A stretch of 58,900 bases of DNA from Desulfobulbaceae bacterium (lineage in GTDB: Bacteria > Desulfobacterota > Desulfobulbia > Desulfobulbales > SURF-16): positions 1 through 58,900 of the forward strand of contig PKTX01000040.1 in NCBI GenBank assembly GCA_002868945.1, in the 5' to 3' direction. Within the stretch, counting starts at the first letter, position 1, and each line of letters begins with the position of its first letter. This document shows, piece after piece, positions 41,648 through 56,107 of the stretch. The position numbers and the translations under genes were made by a program. The notes below the pieces were generated by a model, which saw only the letters and a list, made by a program, of their open reading frames with translations, was not told the DNA's origin and made no database searches.

Positions 41648-41979
41648 CCGTTCACCCGCAAATGATGTTGATTGAGCAGATCCACTGCCCGGTTGACACC
41701 GGAGAGTCGGCCATCAAGCCGCCCCAGGTTTTCTGTCAATCTTGCTATTTTGCTGCCAAGATCATGCAGCTCGGGACGCGATGGCAGAGCCGTGACCGCC
41801 AGCTCCACCGAAGTTAAGCGCTCCTCGGCCCGCTCGTCTTTTTTGGTGCGAGCTGCCCGGCGATCTTCGCAGGTGGCCTGCGAGACAAACGACTGCTTGA
41901 GAGACCACATCCCCCAGGCCATCAGGGCTTGGACCACTAAAATGACCACAGGCAACCAGCGTAAAACCATTTCCATCAA
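41644..41979 (-). CDS. Mu gp25-like membrane protein (DUF2730)
   Basis: Protein of 111 residues with one N-terminal transmembrane helix (LRWLPVVILVVQALMAWGMW, residues 6-25) and a coiled-coil C-terminal part (LHDLGSKIARLTENLGRLDG), the DUF2730 pattern. It follows the lysis genes, as Mu gp25 does; possibly a lysis helper. Confidence 0.85.
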   Translation of the reverse strand: MMEMVLRWLPVVILVVQALMAWGMWSLKQSFVSQATCEDRRAARTKKDERAEERLTSVELAVTALPSRPELHDLGSKIARLTENLGRLDGRLSGVNRAVDLLNQHHLRVNG

Positions 41980-42197
41980 CCCACTCCTCGCCTTTTTTCA
42001 ATGTCGGTCATGCACGCCACACACAGGCTGCAGCCCGGCATGGCGGCCCGCCTGGCCGCCGGTATCTCGTCGCCGCACTCCTCGCACACCTCGGAGCCGG
42101 CAGCGCCTGCGGCCAGCTCCATCCGGCTGCGGTGGCGGCTGACAGCCTCGGCATTGTGTCGGGCCTGGTAGTCGGCGCCGTAATCTCCTTCGTCCAT
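41976..42197 (-). CDS. TraR/DksA-type zinc-finger protein
   Basis: Protein of 73 residues. It has the C4 zinc finger CEECGDEIPAARRAAMPGC then CVACMTDIE, and an N-terminal helix with DYGADYQARHNAEA. TraR-family proteins bind RNA polymerase in its secondary channel without ppGpp. The ATG at 42197 lies 3 bases after the o-spanin candidate. It could tune host transcription during late growth. Confidence 0.9.
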   Translation of the reverse strand: MDEGDYGADYQARHNAEAVSRHRSRMELAAGAAGSEVCEECGDEIPAARRAAMPGCSLCVACMTDIEKRRGVG

Positions 42198-42199
42198 CA

Positions 42200-42448
42200 C
42201 TACTTGTCGGCCAGGCACTTGTCGAGCTGGTCGCGCAGCCGGCGCTCCTGGCGGTAGCGGTCCTGCAGCCAAGCGGGAGTCACGGAATACTTACCGTCCG
42301 GCAGCTCCCTGATCATCCGGTCCGCCGGGATCACCGTCACCGGTTGTCGGTCGGCGCAGCTCGTCAAACAGACGGCTGAGATCATCAGCATCGCGGTCAG
42401 CCAGGGCCCGATCAAACCGCTGTGTATCGCTTTTGTAGTCACGGACAT
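42200..42448 (-). CDS. Outer-membrane spanin (Rz1-like lipoprotein) candidate
   Basis: Protein of 82 residues. It has an N-terminal signal with lipobox LTSC (Cys31) and a short charged, helical mature domain (PAWLQDRYRQERRLRDQLDK). It begins inside the preceding small membrane-protein gene in a different frame, the usual overlap of spanin pairs. Function as o-spanin is inferred from architecture and location in the lysis cassette. Confidence 0.7.
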   Translation of the reverse strand: MSVTTKAIHSGLIGPWLTAMLMISAVCLTSCADRQPVTVIPADRMIRELPDGKYSVTPAWLQDRYRQERRLRDQLDKCLADK

Positions 42449-42527
42449 TCTCCTTTTCCTTCTTTGCAAACCAGTGCTTGAGCAGCATGGCGACAATGGC
42501 CAGCACGGCAGCTGCTGCCTCGGCCAT
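42291..42527 (-). CDS. Inner-membrane spanin (Rz-like) candidate
   Basis: Protein of 78 residues. It has an N-terminal transmembrane helix (MAEAAAAVLAIVAMLLKHWF) followed by a charged periplasmic helix (DTQRFDRALADRDADDLSRL). It overlaps the lipoprotein gene by 158 bases in another frame. Shorter than Rz of lambda (about 150 residues) and with a Pro/Gly-rich tail, so the call is not firm. Confidence 0.6.
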   Translation of the reverse strand: MAEAAAAVLAIVAMLLKHWFAKKEKENVRDYKSDTQRFDRALADRDADDLSRLFDELRRPTTGDGDPGGPDDQGAAGR

Positions 42528-42530
42528 GGC

Positions 42531-42722
42531 TTACTCGTTGCCCCAGGAGATCTCTTCCTTGGTGACCAGACGCAGGCCGGTATTGACGGCGGCCAGGATG
42601 TAGCCGTTGGTCTCCGGACTGATCACCCAGCCGAACTGGGCCTGGGCAACAATGGCGACAATGGCCAGGATGTTGGTCCAAAAGGTCTTGCTTGTCCAAA
42701 AACGCTTGGTAGTAGCTTGCAT
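42531..42722 (-). CDS. Small membrane protein, holin candidate
   Basis: Protein of 63 residues: QATTKRFWTSKTFWTNILAI then VAIVAQAQFGWVISPETNGYI. It has one clear hydrophobic helix and a second weak one. It lies directly downstream of the endolysin, the normal place for a holin or lysis helper. The ATG at 42722 overlaps the endolysin stop (ATGCCT... reading 42725). Confidence 0.65.
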   Translation of the reverse strand: MQATTKRFWTSKTFWTNILAIVAIVAQAQFGWVISPETNGYILAAVNTGLRLVTKEEISWGNE

Positions 42723-42724
42723 GC

Positions 42725-43135
42725 CTATCCCTCTCTCATCATGGTTGCCAGGGTGTGGGCCCGCTGCCCCACCTGGTCGGCCCACACCGAGTCGAGCATC
42801 TCGTCGGCGGCCGTATCAAAGTCGCGCGCCAGCATGGCGGCGAGCATCTTCTTAAACTTGAGTAACCGGGGCAAGCCCAGGTTGTAGCACATGTCGATCA
42901 GCGCCATCCGGCGCCGCTCCGACAGGCTGCGAAAGCCGGGCACAACTTTTTCAAGGCGCAGGGTTGTTGCCAAAATGTCGTTACGCAGCAACACCATGGC
43001 CTCGGCCGTTGAGATGCCGTTGTCGTCCAAGTTGCGGCCCGCGCCGATAGTGATCTTGCCGGCCGGGCACACATAGGGCTTCAGCCGCAACCCCTCGTGC
43101 TCGATGAGCTGTTGTTCAAGTTTTTGTTGATCCAT
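42725..43135 (-). CDS. T4/lambda-R21-type endolysin (GH24 lysozyme)
   Basis: Peptidoglycan-degrading lysozyme of 136 residues. The catalytic Glu is in EHEGLRLKPY. Nine residues later stands Cys (PYVCPAGKIT) and six after that Thr, the E-8x-D/C-5x-T triad with Cys replacing Asp, as in several phage endolysins. TIGAGRNLDD follows. No signal or SAR segment is present, so release needs a holin. The ATG at 43135 was chosen because the longer frame upstream lacks a ribosome-binding site. Confidence 0.92.
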   Translation of the reverse strand: MDQQKLEQQLIEHEGLRLKPYVCPAGKITIGAGRNLDDNGISTAEAMVLLRNDILATTLRLEKVVPGFRSLSERRRMALIDMCYNLGLPRLLKFKKMLAAMLARDFDTAADEMLDSVWADQVGQRAHTLATMMREG

Positions 43136-43277
43136 GGCGCCCCTCCGGAGCTGGTGGTTCACGTGACAGAGGCACGGGCCGCGATGGCCCGTGCATGCCA
43201 ATCAGGAACATCACAGGCTTCTTTGTACTGTGGATCGGGAGGGGGGTGTAGGTGTGGCGGTTCAGGTGGGAGAGTGC

Positions 43278-43312
43278 ATAAAAAAGGGGCAGCCGGACCG
43301 GCCACCCCTTTA
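43278..43312 (-). terminator. Intrinsic terminator upstream of the lysis genes
   Basis: Minus strand AAAGGGGTGGCCGG-TCC-GGCTGCCCC followed by six T residues. It separates the early/middle transcript from the lysis-late genes, so late transcription should begin downstream of it or require antitermination. Confidence 0.8.
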
Positions 43313-43313
43313 A

Positions 43314-43382
43314 GTTAAAGAAGATAAAGAAGGTAGAGGAGTTAAAGAAGGTGGAGGAGATAACTTCTTTATCTTCTTTAAC
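43314..43382. repeat. Long perfect 19-bp inverted repeat
   Basis: GTTAAAGAAGATAAAGAAG (43314-43332) is repeated inverted at 43364-43382 around a 31-base purine-rich loop. It lies next to the terminator between the late lysis genes and the early genes. It has the same GGAG/TTAAAG words as the heptamer repeats but is a different sequence. No gene spans it. Confidence 0.7.
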
Positions 43383-43405
43383 TCCTTTACCTTTTGGCGA
43401 CAAGC

Positions 43406-43591
43406 TTATCTGACCAGGCGCAACACCTGGGCCTGCGGCCCTGTCTCGGCCTGCCTGGTCGCCTCAAGCCTGGCCAGGCGTCTTTCCAGCCGGGCAACGG
43501 CGCGGCGCAGATCGTCATGGCCCTTGTCAAGCATGGCTATCCTGCCGACGCTGTGCAGCGCAATATCCTGCAGGTCTTTCATGGCGAGCAT
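43406..43591 (-). CDS. Small helical protein
   Basis: Unrecognised protein of 61 residues, mostly charged helix (RRAVARLERRLARLEATRQA). An ATG at 43591 with GGAGG 9 bases ahead is the likely start, one base after the rha stop. It is the last gene of the leftward early transcript. Confidence 0.6.
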   Translation of the reverse strand: MLAMKDLQDIALHSVGRIAMLDKGHDDLRRAVARLERRLARLEATRQAETGPQAQVLRLVR

Positions 43592-43592
43592 A

Positions 43593-44348
43593 TCAGTGCA
43601 CCTCCTTGCCGCCGCCATCCGCTAAAGCCAGACCTGTAACAATGGGTGTTCTGGCACCTTTAAGAATAACGCGACCTTGGGAAACTTGGGGAAGACAACG
43701 GTAGAGCTTGGCAAAGAAATTTGGCTTAGAATCAAATGAAGCCGCTGTTTCCCGGCAATAGCGGCTAAAGGCCTCATAGAGAGCAGCCTTGGTGGTGAAT
43801 TTGCCCGATTCTATCTGGCAGCAGTGATCAACAAAGGCCTGGACATTCGAGGTGTCCATGAACCTGATGAAGCAACCGGCCCCGCTACCATGGGCCCTTC
43901 TGGACTCCCGGGAAACGGCTTCTCCAAGACGATCTTGATGGGCCGCAAGTTTCCCCACTGTTACCATTAGATCTGCCATTGTGCCTATCAGGTTGTTGAT
44001 CACCGGCGTCTCAAGCAGCTGATCGTGCAGGTCGCGGGAGCCGTAAAATGATTTAACCTCACCGCGCTCCAGCTTCTGCCAACGGTCAATCACCAAGGCT
44101 CGCCGCTTGGCATCATAGCCGGTGATCAACACCATGGTGGCCTGGAAGTCGAGCTGATACATGGGGCGTAGTTCGCCCTTTTTGTCTTTGTAGTCAACGG
44201 CAGCAAAATTGCTTTCGTTTATTGCTTCTTGATCTGTCAGTGAGCGAATATCACGCAACACATCAAAGTGGTTCTTGTTGGTGAGTTCTGCGATCTCCAG
44301 GCTGGTCATCCTGGTGTTGGGGTGGATGCTGATAATTTCGTTGTTCAT
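43593..44348 (-). CDS. Rha-family phage regulator with C-terminal primase-like domain
   Basis: Protein of 251 residues. The N-terminal pRha domain (MTSLEIAELTNKNHFDVLRD then LDFQATMVLITGYDAKRRAL near residue 85) is followed by a C-terminal domain VQAFVDHCCQIESGKFTTKA with FSRYCRET, resembling the winged-helix end of D5/P4-type primases. Such proteins regulate phage growth; the mechanism is not known. An AGGAGG precedes the ATG. The upstream 300 bases are a structured leader with two terminators. Confidence 0.85.
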   Translation of the reverse strand: MNNEIISIHPNTRMTSLEIAELTNKNHFDVLRDIRSLTDQEAINESNFAAVDYKDKKGELRPMYQLDFQATMVLITGYDAKRRALVIDRWQKLERGEVKSFYGSRDLHDQLLETPVINNLIGTMADLMVTVGKLAAHQDRLGEAVSRESRRAHGSGAGCFIRFMDTSNVQAFVDHCCQIESGKFTTKAALYEAFSRYCRETAASFDSKPNFFAKLYRCLPQVSQGRVILKGARTPIVTGLALADGGGKEVH

Positions 44349-44370
44349 TCTGCTACCTCCTGTCTGGGAA

Positions 44371-44652
44371 TTAAGAAATTCCCGCCCCTGCGCTTCCAAT
44401 CGCAAAAAAAAGGGCGGAACCGTGCGGGTTGGAAGACCGGAGACAGGCACCGGCGGGCCCGAGGGCCCCCCGCACGGCCCGCCCAAAGTGGTGCGATGCC
44501 GCGCTGTGGACGCTTGTACCCGTTTTTGGGGCACAAAAAAACCGCCGATACTGCTGGTGGCGGTGCGTCCGCCTGTCTATCGGGCTTCCAATCCCGGTCA
44601 CGGATTTTGCCGTGACGGTCTTAAAATAGCCCCAACCGGCGGACGCTGTCAA
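44371..44652 (-). ncRNA. Structured leader with Ash/Icd-like frame and two terminators
   Basis: On the minus strand a TTG-started frame (93 codons, TVTAKSVTGIGSPIDRRTHR...FGRAVRGALGPAG) resembles the Ash/Icd-like frames that overlie regulatory RNA in P4-like and other prophages (recalled, not searched). Two terminators face the leader: CCGCC/GGCGG with seven T residues (44564-44535), and GGGCGG..CGTGCGGG/CCCGCACG..CCGCCC (44484-44404) with eight T residues. GCTTCCAATC occurs twice and inverted once. This may be an attenuator or immunity RNA ahead of rha, not a protein. Confidence 0.45.
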
Positions 44653-44661
44653 CCATATTTA

Positions 44662-44690
44662 TTGACCTTGCAACATCTACTTGCTATGAC
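44662..44690 (+). promoter_or_regulatory. Promoter of the 44.7-kb cargo gene
   Basis: TTGACC (44662-44667), 17 bases, TATGAC (44685-44690), then AAGAGGAGAGAAAATG as the ribosome-binding region about 38 bases downstream. It points against the phage operons, as expected for lysogenic expression. Confidence 0.65.
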
Positions 44691-44733
44691 TAGCCCTGTA
44701 AAAAAATATCATTCACTAATAAGAGGAGAGAAA

Positions 44734-45258
44734 ATGAAAACCATTTCCAACCCTGCGGCATTCCGGGTTTCAGTCTTTTTATTACTGGCAGTTGTAATGA
44801 TTCCATCAATTTCTTCTGGGCAAGAAGATCAGCTTCTCGAAAGAGAAATGGAGGAATTCGACCGCATTGCCAAAGAGAATGGGTATGTGGGGTTATACAA
44901 AAACGGTGGCATTGCCAGGTTCCTTTATCGGGTGAAGCACGGAGACCAGATGAGCAGCGGGTTAAATAAATTCTTCTGGAGCGATATCTCAGCCAATGAC
45001 AATAGGCTTGATGCTAAATTCGAAGCGATACAACTTTTTGATGGGCTCATTATCTACGACCTCAACGACTTTAAGGGTAATGAGGTTATCAGATTCACCA
45101 TCATTGTCCCATCCGTCGAGGGAGAGGCTTTTCTCGAAGGGCAAACCTTGAGACACAGAATGCATGTTTATACAGGCAACATAACCTATACCACTGTTTT
45201 AGGAGTTGAGAGGACGATACCTCTCTTTAAGCCGGTCGCATTCGAAGAGGTTGACTGA
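44734..45258 (+). CDS. Secreted cargo protein (moron candidate)
   Basis: Unrecognised protein of 174 residues. The signal peptide covers MKTISNPAAFRVSVFLLLAV to SSG (residues 1-29), with no cysteines in the mature part, which is beta-rich (LFDGLIIYDLNDFKGNEVIR, HRMHVYTGNITYTTVLGV). It has its own promoter and AGAGGAGAG ribosome-binding site and opposes the phage early operon, ending 18 bases from the Mor stop. Lysogenic conversion or surface exclusion is plausible; no homologue was recognised. Confidence 0.75.
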   Translation: MKTISNPAAFRVSVFLLLAVVMIPSISSGQEDQLLEREMEEFDRIAKENGYVGLYKNGGIARFLYRVKHGDQMSSGLNKFFWSDISANDNRLDAKFEAIQLFDGLIIYDLNDFKGNEVIRFTIIVPSVEGEAFLEGQTLRHRMHVYTGNITYTTVLGVERTIPLFKPVAFEEVD

Positions 45259-45275
45259 TACGCTACTCACAGGCA

Positions 45276-45617
45276 TCACCACAACCTCATCTGCTTATCA
45301 TCAGGCTCCACAGCGCCCAAAATGTTGTATGTCTGCCGTTCGCCCAGGCCGTGACTCCGGGCCAGCTCGATGACGGTGATGCCGCCCTGGTCGTACCTCT
45401 GACGCATCCAGCGGTTGCGCCACTTGATCTTGAGCGGCCTGACGCTGGGCAGGCGCAGCATGGTGCCGCCGATCTTCTCGGCAACCAGCAAGGAGTCGCG
45501 TACACCGATAACCTCGGCCAGGATCGGCAGGTCACCGGGCAACTCTTCGATGGCCGGCAGGGCCTCGTCCGGCATGTCGGCAATGGATGGGTCACTATAC
45601 TCGTCGTGCCTGCTCAC
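45276..45617 (-). CDS. mor: Mor/C-type transcription activator
   Basis: Protein of 113 residues of the Mor family. It has DLPILAEVIGVRDSLLVAEK then IGGTMLRLPSVRPLKIKWRN, and a C-terminal helix-turn-helix (GGITVIELARSHGLGERQTY). In Mu, Mor switches on the middle and C the late operon; only this one family member is present here, so it may serve both functions. It overlaps GemA's gene by one base. Confidence 0.93.
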   Translation of the reverse strand: MSRHDEYSDPSIADMPDEALPAIEELPGDLPILAEVIGVRDSLLVAEKIGGTMLRLPSVRPLKIKWRNRWMRQRYDQGGITVIELARSHGLGERQTYNILGAVEPDDKQMRLW

Positions 45618-46048
45618 TACCTCGCCTCCGGGTCAATGCCTGCGTCCTTGCAGCGCTTGCGCAGGTCTGTGATCAACACAAACAGTTCATAGTCACCATC
45701 AAGCCATTCTAGGCGATCGATGCCGAATTGCTTTTTGCAGCGGCGGTGCAGCTTGGCCACGTCGTAGCCCAGGGCGTTCCACATGGCCAGGATGTACTTT
45801 TGCCGCCTGGCCGCCGGGCCCGGCTTGATGCGGACAAAGTTGTCATCCTTCTTCACAGTTGTCGGCCGCTTGGGCCGCCAGCCTTTGGCGCGGAAATGGT
45901 TGAGCAACACCGTGACCTGGCGCGGCGCCAGCTCCTTGGCGCTGCCTACCTGGAAGCGCCAGTGCAGCACATCGCGATACTCGGCATCGCTCATGCCCAG
46001 CTCTTTCTTGGCGATGTGTATTTTGGCAAGGTCGGCACGTGATACCAT
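45617..46048 (-). CDS. GemA-type regulator (Mu gp16, DUF1018)
   Basis: Protein of 143 residues. It has SRADLAKIHIAKKELGMSDA then EYRDVLHWRFQVGSAKELAP, the DUF1018 start, followed by AMWNALGYDVAKLHRRCKKQ. In Mu, GemA affects host gene expression and DNA supercoiling. The ATG at 46048 begins MVSRADL; the open frame starts three codons earlier. Confidence 0.9.
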   Translation of the reverse strand: MVSRADLAKIHIAKKELGMSDAEYRDVLHWRFQVGSAKELAPRQVTVLLNHFRAKGWRPKRPTTVKKDDNFVRIKPGPAARRQKYILAMWNALGYDVAKLHRRCKKQFGIDRLEWLDGDYELFVLITDLRKRCKDAGIDPEAR

Positions 46049-46053
46049 GGCGA

Positions 46054-46614
46054 TCACCTCTTCCTCTTGTGTTCATTGGCCCGGCGCACGGACTCAGGCA
46101 GCATTTGCCACTCGTCATCCGTCATGGTTGCCCAGGCGTCGTCTGTCTGATCCGCCCCGGCAGGCCCCGGCGCCCGGCCGGTACGATAGTTGCCGGCTTT
46201 CTCCAGCTCGCGTCGCCGGGCCTCGGCTGCGGCATCGGCCTGGTCCGCCAGTTGCCAGGCCACCTGGCGCATGTAGTTGTGGTTCGGCAGGGGCCGCGAC
46301 AGCCGGTCGCGGCGCTCCACCATCTGGGCCATGGCCTCGGCCCACAGGGACGGTGGGCAGGGCCTGGCCGGTTTGCCCTGCACCTGCACATGGCCGCCAT
46401 CCACCAGGGCGGCAAGCTCCCGCACCAGGCGGGCCGCCTTTTTCCACCCCATGGCCCGCGACTCGGCCCGAAACAGGGACAGATAGGGCAGGCAGGCGCC
46501 CGGCAGCGGCGCCGGCAACCCGGCCACCGCCACCAACACCTCACGTGCCGCCACATCATTGATCCATGCCTCGGCAGACGCCGTCAGCCCGCACCCCGGA
46601 CATACAAGACGCAT
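46054..46614 (-). CDS. Hypothetical early protein with N-terminal zinc ribbon
   Basis: Protein of 186 residues. It begins MRLVCPGCGLTASAEAWIND (one CxxC pair), followed by helical segments (LVRELAALVDGGHVQVQGKP) and a basic tail. Proteins with this layout are common in Mu-like phages between gemA and the early DNA genes. Function unknown. The start shares a base with the stop of the next gene (TGATG). Confidence 0.7.
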   Translation of the reverse strand: MRLVCPGCGLTASAEAWINDVAAREVLVAVAGLPAPLPGACLPYLSLFRAESRAMGWKKAARLVRELAALVDGGHVQVQGKPARPCPPSLWAEAMAQMVERRDRLSRPLPNHNYMRQVAWQLADQADAAAEARRRELEKAGNYRTGRAPGPAGADQTDDAWATMTDDEWQMLPESVRRANEHKRKR

Positions 46615-46814
46615 CAGCGTGTCCTCCCGTTGCACCTGCCACACCCCTCACACGGATGCGTGACATGGCTCAAACAACCAGGGTGGCCGCATGGGTCCCC
46701 GTCTTTTATTTCGCGCCTATATCCAATGATTGCCTCTCTCGTGACATCACCGGTGATACCGTCGATCACGAGATCTGGTGTGCAGCATCGCCTCAGAGCG
46801 CCAGTGTCACGCAA
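46614..46814 (-). CDS. Small Cys-rich early protein
   Basis: Unrecognised protein of 66 residues. It has a C-terminal Cys/His cluster (DPCGHPGCLSHVTHPCEGCG) that could bind one or two zinc ions. Overlap of stop and start with its neighbour supports translation. Confidence 0.55.
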   Translation of the reverse strand: MRDTGALRRCCTPDLVIDGITGDVTREAIIGYRREIKDGDPCGHPGCLSHVTHPCEGCGRCNGRTR

Positions 46815-46837
46815 TTTAGCGCCGGCAAGTACATCGC

Positions 46838-47002
46838 CTATCGGGTCAAGGAATGCTCCATCGCGTCACACTCGGGGCAGCCCAAGACAGCAACCCCGAG
46901 GATCGTCCGTGTGTCGAGAAACACTTCGCATCCGCACTCCCTGCACCGAAACCGGCCAGAGCCGTCGATCTCGATATTTTCTTTAGTGGAATTAATAGTC
47001 AT
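46838..47002 (-). CDS. Small zinc-ribbon protein
   Basis: 54 residues with CxxCxC and CPEC pairs (GRFRCRECGCEVFLDTRTIL, LGCPECDAMEHSL). Probable zinc ribbon. ATG at 47002 is the best start; the open frame begins further up without a ribosome-binding site. It overlaps the next gene by 11 bases. Confidence 0.55.
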   Translation of the reverse strand: MTINSTKENIEIDGSGRFRCRECGCEVFLDTRTILGVAVLGCPECDAMEHSLTR

Positions 47003-47231
47003 CAGTCTCTCGTTCGCGCAATTCAAGATGTGGGGGGCCAAAGTCATGAGACATCCGGCGGGCCGGATGACAATTGTAAACAACAACATCTGCCCCATCG
47101 TGAGAGAAACCATGCTCAACGGGCAGGGTGTCAGGCAGCTCCGCTAAAGCAGCTTTTAATTCTCCAACATTCCTCACTACAACCGGATATCCGGCGGCAC
47201 CTACTTTGTAAAACTTCTTCGGGATATCCAT
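46992..47231 (-). CDS. Small hypothetical early protein
   Basis: 79 residues with a mixed alpha/beta pattern (YPVVVRNVGELKAALAELPD, DVVVYNCHPARRMSHDFGPP). No function recognised. It overlaps the zinc-ribbon gene in another frame. The 120 bases upstream hold no gene. Confidence 0.55.
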   Translation of the reverse strand: MDIPKKFYKVGAAGYPVVVRNVGELKAALAELPDTLPVEHGFSHDGADVVVYNCHPARRMSHDFGPPHLELRERETDDY

Positions 47232-47351
47232 AACTCCACCCTCTTCTGATTTCTCAATTCTGGATCCTGTCTTCTGCTTTTATGGCTGGCATCATCAGAC
47301 CCAGGCCGCCACGCCTGGATGACCGGGTCGGTGCCCGGTTTCGCCTTTCCT

Positions 47352-48137
47352 TTACACGGCCGAAAAATCAAGGGGGAGCTGCTGATATGCGCCGCCTGCA
47401 TCCCGTTCGTAAATCCGGAAATAGGTGCGGGAGCCGGTGACGGTGAGGCTGTCGCCGATGGCGGACATGGCCCGCTCCCACTTGGCATCCTTGATATTGA
47501 GCTTGCGCAGGCCCAGGATGCGCTTGGCATTGATCCGGCCCTGCTTGTCTACCTGAAATGCGTCGTCGATAAGGACGCGGACCTTGGCGTCCGAGCCGCT
47601 GGTCCATTCGCGCAGGCACTCGTCAATCAGGGCCTTGGCGGCTTGTAAAGACTCATCAAAATCGAGCTGGTCACTGACGGCCCGCAGAATCCGGTAGCGG
47701 CCGTCAAAGCTGGTAAGGGTGACGTTGCCGCGCAGCCCACCCAGCTTGACGCCGTATTTCTCGGCCGCCAGATCAAGGAAGGCCTCCATGTCGCCGCTCA
47801 GCTGCTCCTTAAACTCCGTCACCACCTTACTGACCTGCTTGGCCTTGGCCACCGCCTCGGCGACAAAGTCGTCGCGGGCCAGGTCCTCGTCCTTGATCGC
47901 CTCAATGGGCACCAGGTGCCCGACACCGTTGCGCTTATAGCCGTCCGGCACTGTCTCTTGCATTTGCTTACCTCCGTAGATTTCGAGCACCTTTGTTTTG
48001 ATCGGCTCGGTGCTGCTTTTGTAGGTGCCGGCCAACACCATGGAGATGGTGGCCGACGAATAGCCGAGCTTGCGGGCCACGGCAGCCTGGCTGCCGTCCG
48101 CCGCAACCGCCTTACGCAGCAGGTGTGTCCATTCCAT
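47352..48137 (-). CDS. HTH-DUF3164 fusion protein
   Basis: Protein of 261 residues. The N-terminal helix-turn-helix (MEWTHLLRKAVAADGSQAAV, ATISMVLAGTYKSSTEPIKT) is usually a separate small phage protein. DUF3164 follows directly from about residue 60 (QETVPDGYKRNGVGHLVPIE) with FKEQLSGDMEAFLDLAAEKY. An internal ATG at 47963 preceded by GGAGG would make DUF3164 alone. So the same frame could give both a fused and a short product. Confidence 0.8.
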   Translation of the reverse strand: MEWTHLLRKAVAADGSQAAVARKLGYSSATISMVLAGTYKSSTEPIKTKVLEIYGGKQMQETVPDGYKRNGVGHLVPIEAIKDEDLARDDFVAEAVAKAKQVSKVVTEFKEQLSGDMEAFLDLAAEKYGVKLGGLRGNVTLTSFDGRYRILRAVSDQLDFDESLQAAKALIDECLREWTSGSDAKVRVLIDDAFQVDKQGRINAKRILGLRKLNIKDAKWERAMSAIGDSLTVTGSRTYFRIYERDAGGAYQQLPLDFSAV

Positions 48138-48483
48138 TACCGACCTCCGTTGCCGCCTTTGTATAGTGCCGCAGCTTGGCGGCCGCCACTTCCACAGCCA
48201 CCAGGGTGAGGCGTATCTCGCTCTGCGGCACGCGCTCGCCCCGCTCCAGGCGGCCGACAAAACCGGTCAGACAGGCAGCCGGGGACGGGTCCGCATGGGT
48301 GCCGGGCGTCAGCAGCCGTCTGGCCAGGCGCTGGATGGTGCGCAGGCACTCTTCAACCTCGGCCCTGGGCACACACATGGATGCACCGACAGCGGCATGC
48401 ACCGTCAAAACATCGTCCAATATCTGCCGGGCCGTATCCTGTGTGCTCGGCAGTGGTTTGTAGAGTATTTTTGCCTTGCTCAT
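48112..48483 (-). CDS. Hypothetical early protein
   Basis: Protein of 123 residues. It is helical (TARQILDDVLTVHAAVGASM, VEECLRTIQRLARRLL). No family recognised. Its start overlaps the next gene's stop as ATGA and its end overlaps the DUF3164 gene, so it belongs to the early operon. Confidence 0.65.
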   Translation of the reverse strand: MSKAKILYKPLPSTQDTARQILDDVLTVHAAVGASMCVPRAEVEECLRTIQRLARRLLTPGTHADPSPAACLTGFVGRLERGERVPQSEIRLTLVAVEVAAAKLRHYTKAATEVGNGMDTPAA

Positions 48484-49046
48484 ATATCGTCCTCCAGTAC
48501 CGTGCGGGCCCGGTTGATCCCGGCCTGGATGTCATCCAGCACCTGACCGAGCACCGCTTTCTTTTGTCTGCGGATCTCCCTGTATTTTGCAGCCTGCTCC
48601 TCGTCAGCCGGCATGTGGGCGATATCCTTAACAAGCCGCCACTTGCTGGGCTTGCTGGCGGGCTTGCCGGGGATCTTCTCGACCACGCCGATCCGCCTCA
48701 GGTTGCTTAACCACTCAAGGGCGTACTTGTTTGATGCGCCGGCCATCTCCTGCATCTCCTCGACCGTAACGGTGCGCCGCATCTTCAGGATGCGCCACAT
48801 CACCCGCCGCTTTTCCGTTATCTTGCCGCTGTCGTCCTTGCCGACATACCTGAGCACGCCGGGTGCAATCCGCACCATCTCGCCGCTTTTGACAAAGTCG
48901 GCGATGGTGTAGCGCATCTTCACCTCTTCGGCCGAGGAGCGCAGGTCAGCGGTGCTGGAGATATCTGCGTATGTCATGGTGTCGTGCCGCAGCAGGATGC
49001 ACGCTTTGCGTATACGGGCAGCAAATGTGTCTTTACGCGCGGGCAT
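48480..49046 (-). CDS. Winged-helix early protein
   Basis: Protein of 188 residues. It contains two winged-helix-like regions: ADFVKSGEMVRIAPGVLRYV near residue 55 and TVEEMQEMAGASNKYALEWL near residue 100. It may resemble phage replication or transcription factors; no function assigned. The start overlaps the MuB stop by 14 bases. Confidence 0.65.
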   Translation of the reverse strand: MPARKDTFAARIRKACILLRHDTMTYADISSTADLRSSAEEVKMRYTIADFVKSGEMVRIAPGVLRYVGKDDSGKITEKRRVMWRILKMRRTVTVEEMQEMAGASNKYALEWLSNLRRIGVVEKIPGKPASKPSKWRLVKDIAHMPADEEQAAKYREIRRQKKAVLGQVLDDIQAGINRARTVLEDDI

Positions 49047-49767
49047 TGCGACCACCTCCTAAGCCTACAGCAAAGGCGTTGGTCACCATCTGCTTAGTGA
49101 CATCCATCTTGCCGTTGGCGTTGACCTGCTGGACCAGAGAGAGGGCGGCGCTCTTGACCAGACGCCAATCACCGCTTGATTTCTGGTGCATAAAAGCCGC
49201 GAGGCTTGGATCAATAGAGAGGTCCGCAGATTTTTTCATGTAGTAAATAATGTCTGGAGATTCTACAGGCTTAAACTCCATGGCCTGAAACGTCCGCGAC
49301 CAGGTGCGCCTGTTGCGCCGCATGACCGTTTCCAACTCCTCCTCACCGACCAGCACAAAAGGGGCCGTGGACACGTCAGAGAGGTCACGCACCAGGTCAA
49401 CCATTTTCGGCCGTACCCGCTCCAGCTCATCGAGGAACACCGGGATCGGCCTGGTGGTGAGTCTATCGATAATGGCGTAGAACATGGCACTGCGGCGGCG
49501 CGGGATGCCCATGATCTTCATGGCGCGGCACAAGGCCTCCAGGAAACCGGCCTCACTGTCGATCATCGGGCCGATCACTCGCAGGTAGACACTCTCGTTA
49601 TGCGCGGCATACCACTGGCACGTACGTGTTTTACCCAAACCGGCCCGGCCTGTTACCTTGCCGAGCCGCCCCTCACCGGCGCCCAGGGCAAGACCGTCCA
49701 TGAGCACCTCAAAATTTCGGACATTCTTGGTCTTGACAAACGTCGGCTCTAACCGTACTTTTCTCAT
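49033..49767 (-). CDS. Transposition ATPase (MuB)
   Basis: AAA+ ATPase of 244 residues that binds target DNA and gives target immunity with the transposase. It has Walker A GRAGLGKT (residues 40-47), a Walker B-like PVFLDELERV near residue 116, sensor-like FVLVGEEELETV and a C-terminal helix bundle. It follows the transposase gene after 67 bases. It lacks the N-terminal HTH domain of Mu B, like the shorter B proteins of D3112-type phages. Confidence 0.93.
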   Translation of the reverse strand: MRKVRLEPTFVKTKNVRNFEVLMDGLALGAGEGRLGKVTGRAGLGKTRTCQWYAAHNESVYLRVIGPMIDSEAGFLEALCRAMKIMGIPRRRSAMFYAIIDRLTTRPIPVFLDELERVRPKMVDLVRDLSDVSTAPFVLVGEEELETVMRRNRRTWSRTFQAMEFKPVESPDIIYYMKKSADLSIDPSLAAFMHQKSSGDWRLVKSAALSLVQQVNANGKMDVTKQMVTNAFAVGLGGGRNARA

Positions 49768-49834
49768 AATTACACCTTGTTCAGAGGTTAATTGTTTTAC
49801 TGAGACGGATGCTCCCCATCCGTCTCGCCTTTTT

Positions 49835-52021
49835 TCACATCTCTTCTGCTGCCTGGTACATCATTGCGGCCTTGGCTCTGGCCTCCTCGAAGTACTCCTT
49901 GTGCCGCTCATACTCCGGCGACAGCTCGAAATAGCGCATCCAGGCCTGCCACTGTTTAGGTATAAGCTGGCCCTGGGCCTCCATCTCGATCAACATGTCG
50001 TACCTGTCAACGTCTCCGAGGCTTTCAAGCTGCTGACGCATCATGCTGGCTTCATCGACAACTGTGGGCTGGTAATCGTCCTCGGCTATCGGCACGACCT
50101 CGGCACTGGCCGCCTCAAGCTCCGCCACCTCGGCCATTATCTGCTCTTCATCCGCCTTGGTGATCTGCTTAGGTTTCTCCGGCAGTTGCTTGATGGGCGG
50201 GCCGCCAGCCTCGTCAACCACGCCGAGATCGATCATCTGCTTCTCGTGCTGAGGCAGAATCTCGGTCTCAAGCAGGTTTCTGGCCATTGCTGAGGCCTCT
50301 TTCTCAAGCTGTTTCTTGTGCTCGATGTTGCGCACCAGCTTCTCTTTGTCCTCGTCCCGGCCGAGCAGGTTTGCCGCCGGGTGGATCTTCTCGACAGGTG
50401 CCGCCTCGCATAGATAGGAGCCGTCCTGGTCGTAGACAAATATGCTTGAAAGATCCTGCTGATCGTAGCGCACAACAACCGGATGGCGGCGGCCGTAAAG
50501 GGCTGGGTGGTAGTAGTTCTGCTTCTGGAAACTGATGCCGTTTCTGTGGATATGCTTAACCTCAAGGCTCATCATGAGGTACGTCAGCTCTGCCTTGTCC
50601 ACCCCTGGCCCGCGCCCTTCAAGAAAGACCTCCATGGGAGTTGCGCCGTCAAGATGTCCGCGTTGCCGACGTGATGCATATTCGTCAAACCAGGCGGCGA
50701 TGGCCCTGTGCGCCTGCTCCAAGGTAAGGAACCGACCGGCCATTGCATTCTCGTGCACCTTGCGGTGCAGCCGCTCGCCGCGCATCATTCTTGGCGGCTT
50801 ACGCTCGATCGATGTGCCGCTGTAAGTGGGGCACCAGCGCTCAAGCTCGGCAAAAGAGCCGAAGAACCGCTCAACCGTTTTCGACTGGCCATGGTACGGC
50901 CAGGCAAAAATGGTCTTGATCCCTAAGCGCTCATAAAGGCCGGCAAAACCGGCCTCGTCAAAGCTCTGGCACCCCTGGAAATGCTTGGCGCGAAACGCGC
51001 GGCCGTTATCGAGATAGACCACCTTCGGCACCATGCCGAGACGGATGATTGACCTTCTGAGCGCCGAGGCGATCGTCTGCGTGTTCTCCGTGGGCATGAT
51101 CTCCCACCCCATGGGCATGCCGCTCTTCATATCCAGAAACAGAATGAGCGACATACGCTTTGGCCTTCCGCTCCATGGGTTGAGGATCTCGAAGTTAAGT
51201 ACGTGTCCGTCAGCAACCAGGATGTCGCCGACATTGATCAGGGAATAATCGCGCTCGATGTAGTAAGCGCATTTGTCGTTCCAGGCTTTGGCGCCTTCAC
51301 GGTGGAAAGTCCAGATGTGGTGGTTGCGGCTGGCCCACTCGTTGAGCCAGCGCCTATAAGTGGCATCTGAGCTGCCGTTCTCGATGCCCTTGGTGTTCAT
51401 AATGGCGTGAGCCATGCGTATGGCCTCGGAAACGCGCGGCCTGTTCGGATGCAGGGCGCAACGCAGCAGAATGTCGGTCTGAGTTGGGGTGAGGGCGCTT
51501 TTGCCGCGTTTGTGGTAGCCGCGATTGTCAGCCAGGACCATGGTGTCGCCACCCGCCTTTTTCACCTTGCGCTCCCAGCCTTCCAGAGTCTTATAATTCT
51601 GCTCTCCCAGGGTCTCGAATAGTTGCGGGTAGGCAATACCCGAGTTGTAGGCAACCATAAACTCGTCTCGCGCTTCCGTCTTTTTGCCCCAGGGCGCCGC
51701 CGCCTTGGCTTGCATATAAAGGCGCAGCAGGTCGGCCTTGGCCATGGCCTTGGGCTGCTGATCAGGCATGATCGTCTTGACGATTCGCTGCCTTTGGTTA
51801 GCAGGCACCAGCGAGTCGATCTCTTCTTTCTTGAGGATGGCCTGGCGGACATATTTGGGCAGCAGGTGGGCCAGGTACCTCTTGCGGCCACCGCCCTGGA
51901 CCTTCTCCCAGGTGTATGGCCACTGCTCGCGGTCTGCTTTTAACTGCAAACCTCTTTCAGTTTTGGGCAAACATGACAGCTCAAGACCGACGAGCGATTT
52001 TACCGAGTAGTAGGCCCTCAC
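49835..52021 (-). CDS. DDE transposase (MuA)
   Basis: Transposase of 728 residues. The catalytic triad is Asp271 in DILVADGHVLN, Asp338 in VVYLDNGRAF, and Glu384 in KTVERFFGSF. Upstream lie DNA-binding helix-turn-helix domains (residues 1-250, e.g. LTPTQTDILLRCALHPNRPR). The C-terminal barrel contains VRYDQQDLSSIFVYDQDG; a long helical tail with PPIKQLPEKPKQITK follows, perhaps the MuB-contacting part. Length is longer than Mu A (663). It is the early gene that integrates and replicates the phage. Confidence 0.95.
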   Translation of the reverse strand: MRAYYSVKSLVGLELSCLPKTERGLQLKADREQWPYTWEKVQGGGRKRYLAHLLPKYVRQAILKKEEIDSLVPANQRQRIVKTIMPDQQPKAMAKADLLRLYMQAKAAAPWGKKTEARDEFMVAYNSGIAYPQLFETLGEQNYKTLEGWERKVKKAGGDTMVLADNRGYHKRGKSALTPTQTDILLRCALHPNRPRVSEAIRMAHAIMNTKGIENGSSDATYRRWLNEWASRNHHIWTFHREGAKAWNDKCAYYIERDYSLINVGDILVADGHVLNFEILNPWSGRPKRMSLILFLDMKSGMPMGWEIMPTENTQTIASALRRSIIRLGMVPKVVYLDNGRAFRAKHFQGCQSFDEAGFAGLYERLGIKTIFAWPYHGQSKTVERFFGSFAELERWCPTYSGTSIERKPPRMMRGERLHRKVHENAMAGRFLTLEQAHRAIAAWFDEYASRRQRGHLDGATPMEVFLEGRGPGVDKAELTYLMMSLEVKHIHRNGISFQKQNYYHPALYGRRHPVVVRYDQQDLSSIFVYDQDGSYLCEAAPVEKIHPAANLLGRDEDKEKLVRNIEHKKQLEKEASAMARNLLETEILPQHEKQMIDLGVVDEAGGPPIKQLPEKPKQITKADEEQIMAEVAELEAASAEVVPIAEDDYQPTVVDEASMMRQQLESLGDVDRYDMLIEMEAQGQLIPKQWQAWMRYFELSPEYERHKEYFEEARAKAAMMYQAAEEM

Positions 52022-52025
52022 AGTT

Positions 52026-52946
52026 TTACCCTCTCAGGTGCATGCGGTTTTTCATCAGCTCTTCAAAAGCTGCTTGCATTTCCTTGATGGTGCCAAACGG
52101 CATCGCCCCACCAACTCCTCCTTGCTCAGGGTCTTCGTAAACTGCCCAGCCGCCGGCCGGGGTGTGGAACTTGATGGTCTTGCTTGCTTTATCCATCCTG
52201 AACAGGGTGTAACCGGCCTGCATGAGCTTCTTGGCATCGTCGCCACCCTGGAAAGCGGCATCTTCGATCTTGGAGCCGGCCTCGGCAAGGGTATGGCGGA
52301 CCTGGTCGAGCAGGCCGACGATTGCCTCGCGCGGCGTTGCATTAAAACCGACAGCCACCTCTTTCTCCACTTCCTCAAGGAAAACGTCAAAAGCCTTCTG
52401 CAGCGGCCCGCTGATCTCGCGGCCTTCAGACACGCTTTTGCGTGCATTGTGGACCTTGCTTTTGGTTGTCTCGCCGACATATTTCTTGGTGATCTTTTTA
52501 ACCATGCTGGCTGTCGGCTTCTTCCCCGGCTCAAGATTTTGCAGAACAGCCCGCCACACCTCTCGCTGCTGGTCCGGCTGCAGGCTCGCCATAGGCCGGC
52601 ACTGCGCCTCGTTCATCGGTACCAGGTCGATAACAGGGCCACCATTCGCATCATGGTCGTCAAAATGTCCGCAACTGCGGACATTTTCCACAACCTCGTA
52701 AGCGCCTATATATTGGTATGCAGTGCTGCGGCCCAGGTCGTAGACATCTTTGCAATATGCCTCAAAAGTGCGCCACGTCTCCCGGTACAGCTTGCGGTCG
52801 TGGATCTCTTTCAGAGCGTCGCCGACTCGCAGAAACGCCCGCATATCTTCATGGATGATCTTCTGCAACCGTTCAAACTGCTTAGTCTCTGCAGCAGTCA
52901 ACGGCTCCACAGGGTTATCCGTCAGCACAATCTCTTTCTTGGCCAT
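52026..52946 (-). CDS. Hypothetical early DNA-binding protein
   Basis: Protein of 306 residues between the transposase and two small regulators. The N-terminal helical region (LTAAETKQFERLQKIIHEDM, FEAYCKDVYDLGRSTAYQYI) has a helix-turn-helix that resembles DUF3102/plasmid replication proteins. The middle contains VIDLVPMNEAQCRPMASLQP. Function unknown, but its place suggests a helper of transposition or partition. Start and stop overlap neighbours by one base. Confidence 0.7.
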   Translation of the reverse strand: MAKKEIVLTDNPVEPLTAAETKQFERLQKIIHEDMRAFLRVGDALKEIHDRKLYRETWRTFEAYCKDVYDLGRSTAYQYIGAYEVVENVRSCGHFDDHDANGGPVIDLVPMNEAQCRPMASLQPDQQREVWRAVLQNLEPGKKPTASMVKKITKKYVGETTKSKVHNARKSVSEGREISGPLQKAFDVFLEEVEKEVAVGFNATPREAIVGLLDQVRHTLAEAGSKIEDAAFQGGDDAKKLMQAGYTLFRMDKASKTIKFHTPAGGWAVYEDPEQGGVGGAMPFGTIKEMQAAFEELMKNRMHLRG

Positions 52947-53170
52947 TATGCTGCATCCTCCATATCAATGGGCAGCCCGAGGTGTTTCCGAGGGCAGCCT
53001 TTTTCAAGAAAATAACCAAGTACCCGCCGGTTATGTTCCCGGCCGGCAATGGTGTTGCTGACAATGGAATGGCTCTTGTACCCAAGAGCGTCGCGGATTT
53101 CCTTGACCGTCATCCGGCCGACCATCCAGCGCCTGATCTCCACTTCATTTCGACCGCTCTGTTCCGCCAT
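52946..53170 (-). CDS. Small HTH protein
   Basis: 74 residues with a probable helix-turn-helix (MTVKEIRDALGYKSHSIVSN). Ends in GYFLEKGCPRKHLGLPIDME. It stands where Mu has ner, so it may be a Ner-like regulator of the early promoter. Confidence 0.65.
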   Translation of the reverse strand: MAEQSGRNEVEIRRWMVGRMTVKEIRDALGYKSHSIVSNTIAGREHNRRVLGYFLEKGCPRKHLGLPIDMEDAA

Positions 53171-53595
53171 TACCACTCCGCCTCAATCTTTCTCATTTTC
53201 GCCCTGGTCGCCTTCATCTGCCTCTGCAGCTTGGCCCACTCAAGCAGATCAATCTCTTCTCCATCGATAACCATGCTGCCAAGCAGCCTGGCCATGACGC
53301 TGATCGGCTCGCTTGTCCGCATAACCACGCAAAATACGGTAACAGCAACCATGGACGGTACCCGCGCCTCGTCGCCGGGGTTTAACCACTTCTCCAGGGT
53401 GTCGCCTGACAACATTTTGGCATTACCGCCATTAAGCTTGACGCGATACTGCTGGGCAAAATCGTTCAGCAAGTCCAGCACCTGAGCGCGTGACAAGCCG
53501 GAATTTTTAACGACCTGGCTCATTGATAACTTCAAGTCTCGGACAAGTCCTCCTATGGTCGGCTGGCCAAATAAATCAAGCTGTCTCGGTGCCAC
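53170..53595 (-). CDS. First early gene, putative regulator
   Basis: Protein of 141 residues. It has a helix-turn-helix-like segment (LSMSQVVKNSGLSRAQVLDL) and a basic helical C-terminus (QRQMKATRAKMRKIEAEW). It is the first gene after the leftward early promoter (53745-53717). No family recognised. Overlap with the next gene is one base. Confidence 0.65.
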   Translation of the reverse strand: MAPRQLDLFGQPTIGGLVRDLKLSMSQVVKNSGLSRAQVLDLLNDFAQQYRVKLNGGNAKMLSGDTLEKWLNPGDEARVPSMVAVTVFCVVMRTSEPISVMARLLGSMVIDGEEIDLLEWAKLQRQMKATRAKMRKIEAEW

Positions 53596-53631
53596 GTTCC
53601 ACCCTCCGTCCGGATGTTAGGTTGTTTGAGT

Positions 53632-53828
53632 CCAATCTTAGGATTGGCCCGGACATTGACCGCTTATATCGGAAAGGATATAGTAAACGGTAACTAACCA
53701 TCGTTAGTATGTGGGCATATTAGCACCATGGGGCGAACTGGTCAACACTATTTTCCAGTGATCGCACTATGCGGCTATTTTGTTTCGGACTTCTCGATAT
53801 CTTATAAAAAGTTGCTCAAAACGCAACT
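53632..53828. promoter_or_regulatory. Early/repressor promoters and palindromic operators
   Basis: Three promoters: leftward early TTGACC-17-TAATAT (53745-53717), rightward TTGACC-17-TATAGT (53656-53684) and rightward TTGTTT-17-TATAAA (53780-53808). Palindromes: CCAATC-4-GATTGG (53632-53647), TATATC-6-GATATA (53665-53682, over a -10), ACTAAC-4-GTTAGT (53693-53708, between face-to-face start sites) and AGTTGC-7-GCAACT (53810-53828, at the start site of the second rightward promoter). Confidence 0.7.
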
Positions 53829-53902
53829 ATACGGAATAGCGTACTTTCTATGTTTTTTTGTGAAAAAATCAAATTTCGCACTTTCTTTCGGGCTTTAAAC
53901 CC

Positions 53903-54442
53903 ATGAACCCCGAAACGTTTTCAGACAGATTTAGGCAAGCTCTAGGACCAAAATCCGTCAACGCGTTCGCCAAAAAGTGCGGAGTGTCAGAGAGCCTTCT
54001 TCGGAAATACCTGTCTGGGTCATGCCCAGGCCTAGATAAAGCAGCGACTATTGCAGAGGTGGCCGGTGTCGATCTCACATGGCTTGCAACTGGCCACGGG
54101 CAAATGCGCCCTGGCTCCCCAGAGACGGAGGCAAACAGCAGCGCAAAAGACACGATCTACACAGAGGCGGCAAACAAGGCTTTCGACGACCTCGGCATGG
54201 CGGAGGGCATGAGTCTCCTCGCAAAGATATACAGCTCTGGCGACACCATCTTGATTCGCGCCATAAACGCCAACCTCATGGCCTTTGGCGAAACAGTGGA
54301 CAACAAGAAGGCTATTAACGATATAGCGGCAGAAAACACAGAAATGAGAGTCAGAGTCGACTCGCTCGAACAAAAACTGACAGCCCTTGAAAAAAGGATG
54401 TCGGAAGAGGATGGCAGCGGTCAGGCCGCCGTAGGCGAATAA
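53903..54442 (+). CDS. CI/XRE-type phage repressor
   Basis: Protein of 179 residues reading opposite to the early operon. The N-terminal XRE helix-turn-helix is FSDRFRQALGPKSVNAFAKK then CGVSESLLRKYLSGSCPGLD (residues 5-45). No S24/LexA peptidase domain follows; instead there is a helical region and a C-terminal coiled coil (VRVDSLEQKLTALEKRMSEE). It is expected to hold the early promoter off. Without a peptidase, induction would not be by RecA-driven self-cleavage. A terminator follows at 54545. Confidence 0.85.
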   Translation: MNPETFSDRFRQALGPKSVNAFAKKCGVSESLLRKYLSGSCPGLDKAATIAEVAGVDLTWLATGHGQMRPGSPETEANSSAKDTIYTEAANKAFDDLGMAEGMSLLAKIYSSGDTILIRAINANLMAFGETVDNKKAINDIAAENTEMRVRVDSLEQKLTALEKRMSEEDGSGQAAVGE

Positions 54443-54544
54443 TCAAACTCCCCCCGCCTGACTGGATCAGATGGGACAACATCGTCCAACCATTCGTCCT
54501 TGTTTAGATAAACTAAACATTTCAAAAAACAACGAATTAAACCC

Positions 54545-54574
54545 ACAGCCCAAGCATTTACGGCTGTTTTTTTT
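54545..54574 (+). terminator. Terminator after the repressor
   Basis: ACAGCC ... GGCTGT followed by eight T residues. A palindrome TGTTTAG-5-CTAAACA (54504-54522) lies just upstream of it. Confidence 0.75.
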
Positions 54575-54596
54575 GACACAAAACCCTACCAAACGC

Positions 54597-54625
54597 TTAG
54601 AACAACCTAAACATCCACCTAATAT
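54597..54625 (+). promoter_or_regulatory. Possible promoter of the left-end cargo operon
   Basis: TTAGAA-17-TAATAT (54597-54625), 50 bases ahead of the cargo ATG. A TTGACA at 54573 overlaps the preceding T-run but has no matching -10. Confidence 0.35.
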
Positions 54626-54674
54626 TTGCTTAGCAATCACAACAATCTACCCCCCCCCACCACCAGAGGTAAAA

Positions 54675-55694
54675 ATGATCGAACGCGAAGATGGCATCAT
54701 AAAGATAAAAAATGAAGAAGAAGCCTGGGATCTTTTCACCGCAGCTACGCGCAACAAGGATATCGGTGAATTTAAAGGAATAAGTTTTGAAAAATGGCCT
54801 GTAGTTAATGTTAACATCAAAGGAAAGCAATACAACTCATCACTAACCACAGCAAACATGCACGGCCTTGTTGCCCTGCAGGATACAGTGTATCGTAGTT
54901 ATGCCCTTGTCCATTATGGTAGCCCAGACACTAGACAGCTTTCAAAAAAAGAAAAAAAAGAACTTGAGCTTATCTTTAAGGTTTCTGAAGGTAGCTCTGG
55001 CATATTAGGAAACTTTGAAAAACCGGCACGAACTCTTGCTGAAGGCATGGTCAACGTCATGGAACCACATCACTATATTATAACAATCTTAGGAGTAGTA
55101 CTGCTTTGGGGTGGAACATCATGTTGGAAATCTTGGCTTCAACAAAGAAAAGAGCTCAAGATAGCTCAGCTTGAAAAAGAATCAAGGCAGTTCGCCGGGC
55201 AGCTTGAAAAAGAAAGGATGGCTATATTCGCAGACGCAATAAAAGAGCGCCCTGTTCTTGTCCCTATACAAGAAAACGCTACAGAGATGTACAATTCGAT
55301 TCTCAAAGGAGCTTCAGATTGTTCTTCTATCAGTATTCCAGGGGTTGAGGATTTGGAGGGAGATACAGTCCGGACGCTGGTTAAATCAAGCAGGACCAAA
55401 GCAAAAGAAATCCAGCTTAACGGCCCATACAGAATAAAAAAAGTTAACAGCTCCAATAGTGACGCCTTTACAATGGAGATTTACAACCAGAAAACAGGCC
55501 AGACTTTCAACGCCACCCTGCAAGACACATTTGTCAAGAGAGGGCGGAACAAAGACCTCCTCCAGCAAGCTGAGTGGGGCCGAAAACCTGTTTACTTACA
55601 GGTAAACGCCAAAGACATAAAGGGAAGCATCACTGGTGCCACGATTATTGGGGTTGAAGAGATCCCGGAAAAAGAGGGACAACAAGATGGCTAA
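54675..55694 (+). CDS. Left-end cargo: membrane/coiled-coil protein, unknown family
   Basis: Protein of 339 residues in an AT-rich operon between the repressor and the phage left end. The N-terminal domain (residues 1-115) contains ANMHGLVALQDTVYRSYALV and HYGSPDTRQLSKKEKKELEL. One transmembrane helix at 131-151 (PHHYIITILGVVLLWGGTSC) is followed by a coiled coil (155-185) and a soluble C-terminal domain (190-339, with MYNSILKGASDCSSISIPGV). The ATG at 54675 follows AGAGGT; the long upstream frame is repetitive and unlikely. No Mu gene corresponds. Role as exclusion or defence protein is inference. Confidence 0.75.
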   Translation: MIEREDGIIKIKNEEEAWDLFTAATRNKDIGEFKGISFEKWPVVNVNIKGKQYNSSLTTANMHGLVALQDTVYRSYALVHYGSPDTRQLSKKEKKELELIFKVSEGSSGILGNFEKPARTLAEGMVNVMEPHHYIITILGVVLLWGGTSCWKSWLQQRKELKIAQLEKESRQFAGQLEKERMAIFADAIKERPVLVPIQENATEMYNSILKGASDCSSISIPGVEDLEGDTVRTLVKSSRTKAKEIQLNGPYRIKKVNSSNSDAFTMEIYNQKTGQTFNATLQDTFVKRGRNKDLLQQAEWGRKPVYLQVNAKDIKGSITGATIIGVEEIPEKEGQQDG

Positions 55695-55905
55695 AATACC
55701 TTGCGAAATAACAGATGGATATGAGGAGAATGATAACGGGATAGAAGTCGAGTGCACATACGCTGAGTGTGGAAAGTGTGGTCATGAAACCATGAGCTTT
55801 GGGACACATGAAGATAGTGTCAGAAGATGCTTGGCTTTACTCAACGAGGAGTGCCCATGTAATGAAAACAATTTCTATTACGACGAGGACGATGAAGGCC
55901 CTTGA
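55687..55905 (+). CDS. Left-end cargo: small Cys-rich protein
   Basis: Protein of 72 residues overlapping the previous gene by 8 bases, with GAGGGA ahead of the ATG. It contains CGKCGHETMSFGTHEDSVRR then CLALLNEECP and ends in an acidic tail (FYYDEDDEGP). The CxxC plus CPC arrangement suggests a zinc-bound fold. I recall similar small proteins (GHET-S-GTS-S---CL-LL-EECP) in many bacteria without known function. Translational coupling makes it a likely partner of the membrane protein. Confidence 0.75.
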   Translation: MAKIPCEITDGYEENDNGIEVECTYAECGKCGHETMSFGTHEDSVRRCLALLNEECPCNENNFYYDEDDEGP

Positions 55906-55940
55906 TTAAAGATTAAAATTCTCGTTCTATCTGCAAATAA

Positions 55941-55980
55941 AAAGAGCAAACCAGCCGACCATGCCAATTTGCTCTTTTTT
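55941..55980. terminator. Bidirectional terminator of the cargo operon
   Basis: Perfect 10-bp stem AAAGAGCAAA/TTTGCTCTTT, with T residues continuing at both outer sides. Placed 35 bases after the cargo operon. Confidence 0.85.
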
Positions 55981-56010
55981 AATTTCCAACCAAATTTTTT
56001 TCTCAAGATT

Positions 56011-56050
56011 TCCCACAAACTCCCACCAGTTCCCAAAAAATCCCAAAATT
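56011..56050. repeat. Four TCCCA repeats with exact 10-bp period
   Basis: TCCCA begins at 56011, 56021, 56031 and 56041 (TGGGA on the other strand), about 60 bases inside the phage left end. The spacing is one helical turn, so all would face the same side of the DNA. This is the position of the L2/L3 transposase sites in Mu. Confidence 0.8.
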
Positions 56051-56078
56051 TTCTTCAAAAATATATCATCTCCAATTA

Positions 56079-56107
56079 TCTCATTCTATCTGCCTTCTGA
56101 TAGTTAG
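56079..56107. repeat. Prophage left end with target duplication
   Basis: Read inward the end is TATCAGAAGGCAGA then TAGAATGAGA; outside it is GTTAG (56103-56107), matching 17661-17665. The tip is TA instead of the TG found at the other end. Confidence 0.75.

Follow-up and report, generated by a model that had tools for sequence, protein, structure and literature searches.

The 58,900-nt stretch of Desulfobulbaceae contig PKTX01000040.1 analysed here (the window) holds a Mu-like prophage in which two overlapping genes, one for a 339-residue and one for a 72-residue protein, follow the repressor gene. Their placement raises the question of what such genes do and whether they do it together, as a preliminary description of the locus had proposed in suggesting one functional unit, perhaps a membrane-anchored sensor with a zinc protein. 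We find that the large gene is repressor-linked prophage cargo of the widespread phrog_6191 family. The small, zinc-ribbon-like gene is best explained as an independent accessory gene that came to lie next to it, on its downstream side.

The local features previously described were confirmed. Both ORFs are present and share 8 bases (ATGGCTAA), and a Shine-Dalgarno-like AGAGG/AGAGGG precedes each start. The overlap suggests coupled translation of the two genes and nothing beyond that, and the small gene is probably translated together with the large one. The pair is AT-rich, as claimed, with a GC content of 0.429 (large gene) and 0.434 (small gene) compared with 0.582 for the whole prophage and 0.577 for the transposase gene, that is, 0.43 versus 0.58 for the phage. 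It also reads away from the early genes: pair and repressor lie on the plus strand, transposase and early genes on the minus strand, which the terminase and portal genes share. Terminators had been placed at 54545 and, as a bidirectional one, at 55941. A hairpin was found at 54545–54567, followed by a U-tract (−7.7 kcal/mol, z −2.2), and a second at 55939–55979, with perfect 12-nt arms (−13.0 / −20.5 kcal/mol, z −3.9 / −4.8). Because the first hairpin parts the repressor from the cargo and a search between repressor and large gene found no promoter-like site, we treat expression of the cargo in the source lysogen as an expectation rather than an observation.

Features of the prophage and its cargo region in the window
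Feature	Position	Strand	Basis or remark
Mu-like prophage, 38.4 kb, complete	17666..56102 (left end approximate)	-	GTTAG flanks at 17661-17665, 56103-56107
Transposition protein	49033..49767	-	6.6e-34
MuA-type transposase	49835..52021	-	phrog_310, 2e-107
CI-like repressor (HTH), 179 aa, upstream neighbour of cargo	53903..54442	+	phrog_3037 1.6e-14; Pfam Phage_CI_repr 3.3e-7
Terminator-like hairpin and U-tract in repressor/cargo gap	54545..54575	+	folding energy
Large cargo gene	54675..55694	+	339 aa, phrog_6191 family
Small gene	55687..55905	+	72 aa, 7 Cys, four-Cys zinc-ribbon-like phage protein
Left-end repeat copy GCAGATAGAACGAGA, possible inner transposase-binding site	55920..55934	-	repeat sequence
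Bidirectional terminator at end of cargo operon	55939..55979	both	folding energy
Left-end repeat copy GCAGATAGAATGAGA	56079..56093	-	in register with right-end GCATGTAAAATGAGG

The right end of the prophage lies at 17666 (TGTAAGCGCGCATG...; TGTAAGCGCGCATGTAAAATGAGG), and at the left end, about 56102, the minus strand has the sequence TATCAGAAGGCAGATAGAATGAGA. The repeats GCAGATAGAATGAGA (left) and GCATGTAAAATGAGG (right) each lie 9 bases from their prophage end. With the ends mapped, the cargo falls between repressor and left end, in agreement with its earlier assignment to the left end of the phage. GTTAG abuts both ends inside an AGTTAGG heptamer array; the flanks are compatible with a 5-bp target duplication, the array itself being repetitive. 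Arrays of AGTTAGG/GGAGTTA occupy 56102–56158 and 17639–17665, similar ones occur at about 20 or more other places on many contigs, and insertion of the phage appears to have been into such an array. The outermost gene at the right end (17732–18493, minus strand) encodes a D12-class adenine methyltransferase (Pfam MethyltransfD12, 1.8e-26), plausibly for anti-restriction.

To which family does the large protein belong? Profile searches, advised for both proteins, were informative for this one: it matched phrog_6191, a family of unassigned function that many temperate phages carry, at E 7.4e-88 (residues 7–332 of 339 against profile positions 6–336 of 338). Searches of Pfam, NCBIfam and PDB sequences gave no credible family for either protein; Peptidase_A4, GpJ FNIII and similar profile matches were rejected as weak chance matches. 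By tblastn, relatives of the large protein were found in Moraxella phage Mcat17, coliphages PhiR12 and phi458 and Pasteurella phage Pmp14, with 25–31% identity to the members in phage records. The PhiR12 member as query added coliphage mEp332 and Salmonella phage GE_vB_TR, and plasmid records of Syntrophotalea, E. coli, Proteus and Vibrio also hold relatives. An example of the family is mEp33204 of mEp332 (ABO40672), and the PhiR12 and mEp332 records name a 'T2SS GspM containing protein'. The window protein alone as query gave no matches in genome or viral contigs, where exact peptide patterns are too divergent; a six-sequence family alignment found 80 viral-contig loci. In 34 diverse sequences, the window protein among them, W41, P42, G50, T58, M62, Q69, G106, S107, R240, D284, W301 and other residues are invariant. 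PADLOC returned nothing for the window protein and only scattered weak matches among 34 relatives, and no functional study of the mEp332/PhiR12 gene or of phrog_6191 was found in the literature. A genome of the same genus carries a 37% identical homologue (L132, G002:C9, 11663–12787) that is solitary, about 470 bp behind tRNA-Phe, with no evident phage gene within 12 kb upstream; it is perhaps a remnant or an island copy.

The genomic positions of these relatives bear out the earlier suggestion that the window gene is an accessory gene near the repressor of a transposable phage, in a type of slot that carries exclusion genes. In mEp332, the phrog_6191 gene is flanked by cI and the terminator Timm, within the predicted pRM transcript, and the order cI then phrog_6191 is repeated in PhiR12, phi458, Mcat17 and a lambda-dv-like E. 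coli plasmid. This 7-kb plasmid (L012, CP148562.1) carries cI, cro, cII, O, P and ren together with the family gene behind cI. A CI homologue was found upstream, on the same strand and within 2 kb, in 25 of the 80 viral-contig loci. Another 40 have the gene antisense, 5–23 nt from a Q antiterminator (Q-like, 9.7e-43), so placed that it lies between Q and the lysis genes, and the remaining 15 have it in other places, for instance next to an integrase or flanked by tail genes. The arrangement of the window, with the family gene behind repressor and cargo genes, recurs in Mu-like phage L093 (transposase 1.7e-139, repressor 1.1e-41). In L130, the family gene follows a CI-type repressor (1.4e-42) and two other cargo genes, and L130 is probably a related element with the same slot. 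Zinc-ribbon, nuclease-like and unknown genes fill this repressor-to-end slot in Mu-like and related phages (L093 5279–5979, L130 1462–4152), and the slot is possibly a productive place to look for exclusion genes.

Members of the family are not tied to one repressor. An identical 332-aa E. coli protein (0 differences in 8 loci) stands behind three repressors, two of them no more than 24% alike, and the E. coli alleles tested, each rare and sharply bounded, occurred in 9, 18 and 18 of 5,426 genomes, all at 99% or more. Mobile cargo behaves in this way, whereas a component devoted to a single switch does not.

An AlphaFold2 model of the large protein (mean pLDDT 83), built on an alignment of 34 window and viral-locus sequences, showed an N-domain (1–127), a membrane segment (~131–150), a coiled coil (~151–212) and an OB-fold (~242–330). 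Helices at 131–166 span the hydrophobic segment, and further helices extend to 212. The single hydrophobic stretch, at ~126–153, has a mean hydropathy of 1.38 in the window protein, and hydropathy maxima of 1.2–2.3 recur at the same place across 34 relatives; with the long helices at 148–212 in the model, this agrees with the initial reading of a membrane/coiled-coil protein. Lysine and arginine at the membrane segment favour its C-side flank (4.3 versus 2.0 on the N side), so that, by the positive-inside rule, coiled coil and OB-fold would face the cytoplasm and the protein would be anchored in the inner membrane. The OB-fold (242–330) matched many OB proteins at VIA Z 7–9.7 (best at rmsd 2.7 over 73 residues), a match to a common small barrel that proves no ligand. 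Matches to AB5-toxin B subunits were set aside, since the small barrel is all that they have in common with it. The domain is weakly basic (family mean net charge +0.8, window protein +6). For the N-domain alone (pLDDT 79), there was no structural match (best Foldseek E 0.37, best VIA Z 3.9), which does not prove a new fold. Over the whole length, Foldseek gave weak matches to two BFVD entries, Q6NE06 of Leptospira phage LE1 and A0A8S5QA00 (DUF6575), with E of ~2e-5 and 3e-6 and TM below 0.4; on these model comparisons they are possible distant relatives.

What might such a cargo gene do? Exclusion loci tied to the prophage repressor and expressed in the lysogen are known in bstA and rexAB (PMC8585504; PMC11077077), and AbiP and PdpSau share a design of membrane anchor and OB-fold (PMC10127798). 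As phrog_6191 sits in the immunity slot known for rexAB and bstA, and its predicted membrane/OB-fold design resembles that of AbiP and PdpSau, we consider it most likely, at about even odds, that the large gene is a single-gene, lysogen-expressed moron that keeps out other phages or aborts their infection. Family, position, shuffling and predicted architecture are the ground on which this analogy stands. In the mechanism that we infer, the lysogen would make the large protein, which would be held by the inner membrane and extend its coiled coil and OB-fold into the cytoplasm; the OB-fold would bind nucleic acid or a replication protein of the incoming phage; and binding would lead to a replication block or membrane damage, as proposed for AbiP/PdpSau. 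More tentatively, the whole of phrog_6191 could be a widespread, unrecognised one-gene exclusion family, its tethered OB-fold capturing replication intermediates, its N-domain serving as trigger or effector and its cassette swapped among lambdoid, Mu-like and other phages.

The gene's place and its expected mode of expression would fit lysogenic conversion as well, in which the membrane protein alters host physiology (stress, surface or biofilm) and helps the lysogen in ways unrelated to phage. The homologue carrier phi458 has been studied for biofilm and virulence effects (PMC9701743), but these concern the whole prophage and nothing specific to this gene. Moreover, the design is uniform across Escherichia, Moraxella, Pasteurella, Vibrio, Proteus and Syntrophotalea, and because it is spread over such different hosts, a general rather than host-specific role is indicated. 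We consider lysogenic conversion a less probable explanation, though one to be taken seriously. A gene directly behind cI in many phages could also modulate the phage's own lysis-lysogeny switch in co-expression with the repressor, as RexA, which acts on the lambda switch (PMC11077077), and Hex, which is co-expressed with the 434 repressor (PMC3564112), would suggest. However, the identical protein behind repressors only 24% alike, and the half of the viral loci in which the gene is not near cI but antisense and close to Q, make a switch modulator improbable.

Cooperation of the two proteins in one two-part system of membrane sensor and zinc protein is, for its part, very unlikely. Three things speak for it in the window, namely the 8-base overlap, the common operon and the equal AT-richness, and in another Mu-like phage (L120) the small gene likewise trails a gene behind the repressor, here of 113 aa, with a short overlap. 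Yet when every ORF in 99 loci was compared with the small protein by phmmer, no small-family ORF was found beyond the window's own; about 95 other loci hold the large family, all without the small gene, which is missing also where the same-genus genome G002 has its large gene. Conversely, eight small-protein loci contained no large-family ORF. Since neither family's other loci hold the partner, the pairing is local and the proposal of one functional unit is unsupported. The gene-neighbourhood comparison that had been advised gave the same answer, with the pairing seen only in the window: the slot recurs, the pairing does not. The two kinds of observation named beforehand as refuting a unit, the large gene without the small one and the small one elsewhere without the large, are in substance both made here, and with the families occurring apart, a sensor joined to a zinc protein is without comparative support.

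The small protein itself is Cys-rich, acidic and devoid of hydrophobic helices. Direct searches with it in phages, plasmids and 395 genomes of the same phylum returned only itself, and a first motif scan gave two spurious DNA matches, which were discarded. With a second motif we obtained four relatives, checked by translation, and their alignment led to eight phage loci (IMG/VR L119–L126, an unnamed family) with 41–66% identity; for the 72-aa protein as reference, 41–64% is also given. In the nine sequences, C28, C31, H33, C48 and C56 are invariant, a CxxCGH...C...C pattern that resembles a zinc ribbon, and the neighbouring genes differ in each phage. Least likely of all is that the cargo is passenger DNA without present function, an idea to which its AT-richness and look of recent acquisition lend some colour but to which the intact ORF and the residues invariant across 34 diverse sequences of the large protein are opposed.

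The repressor slot has already been the source of rexAB and bstA, and phrog_6191 fills it in lambdoid, Mu-like and other phages of distant hosts. If phage exclusion is indeed its function, it would be a mobile one-gene defence that the PADLOC 2023 library does not capture, and with members in phages of E. coli K-12 hosts (mEp332, PhiR12) that function is directly testable.

Compared with known systems, the window gene resembles bstA and rexAB in lying directly downstream of a prophage repressor, with lysogen expression expected, and differs in its single-gene membrane/OB design and in belonging to a family that also occurs away from the repressor. No BstA-like or RexA model was among its Pfam or PADLOC 2023 matches. 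The Rex layout of a soluble DNA-binding RexA and a four-helix RexB was rejected, as the large protein is itself the predicted membrane protein, with a different domain layout; the small Cys-rich, acidic protein of 72 aa, without hydrophobic helices, was likewise rejected as a RexB-like partner. Its own family (L119–L126) has the like Cys signature in other phages and beside different neighbours. PdpSau, from S. aureus prophages, lies beside the lysis module, has a membrane helix and an OB-fold, is structurally similar to AbiP of Lactococcus, and causes early death of infected cells and stalled phage replication (PMC10127798). The predicted membrane segment and OB-fold of the large protein recall both, and many phrog_6191 members, like prophage-borne PdpSau, adjoin lysis genes. 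In contrast to the N-terminal membrane segment of PdpSau, that of the large protein is central, after a 127-residue N-domain, and sequence homology to PdpSau was rejected (hhalign probability 0.1%). Other phrog_6191 members differ from the window gene, which lies in a Mu-like phage and is trailed by a small Cys gene absent beside any of them, but they are related to it over the full length and have the same predicted design and the same repressor-linked slot.
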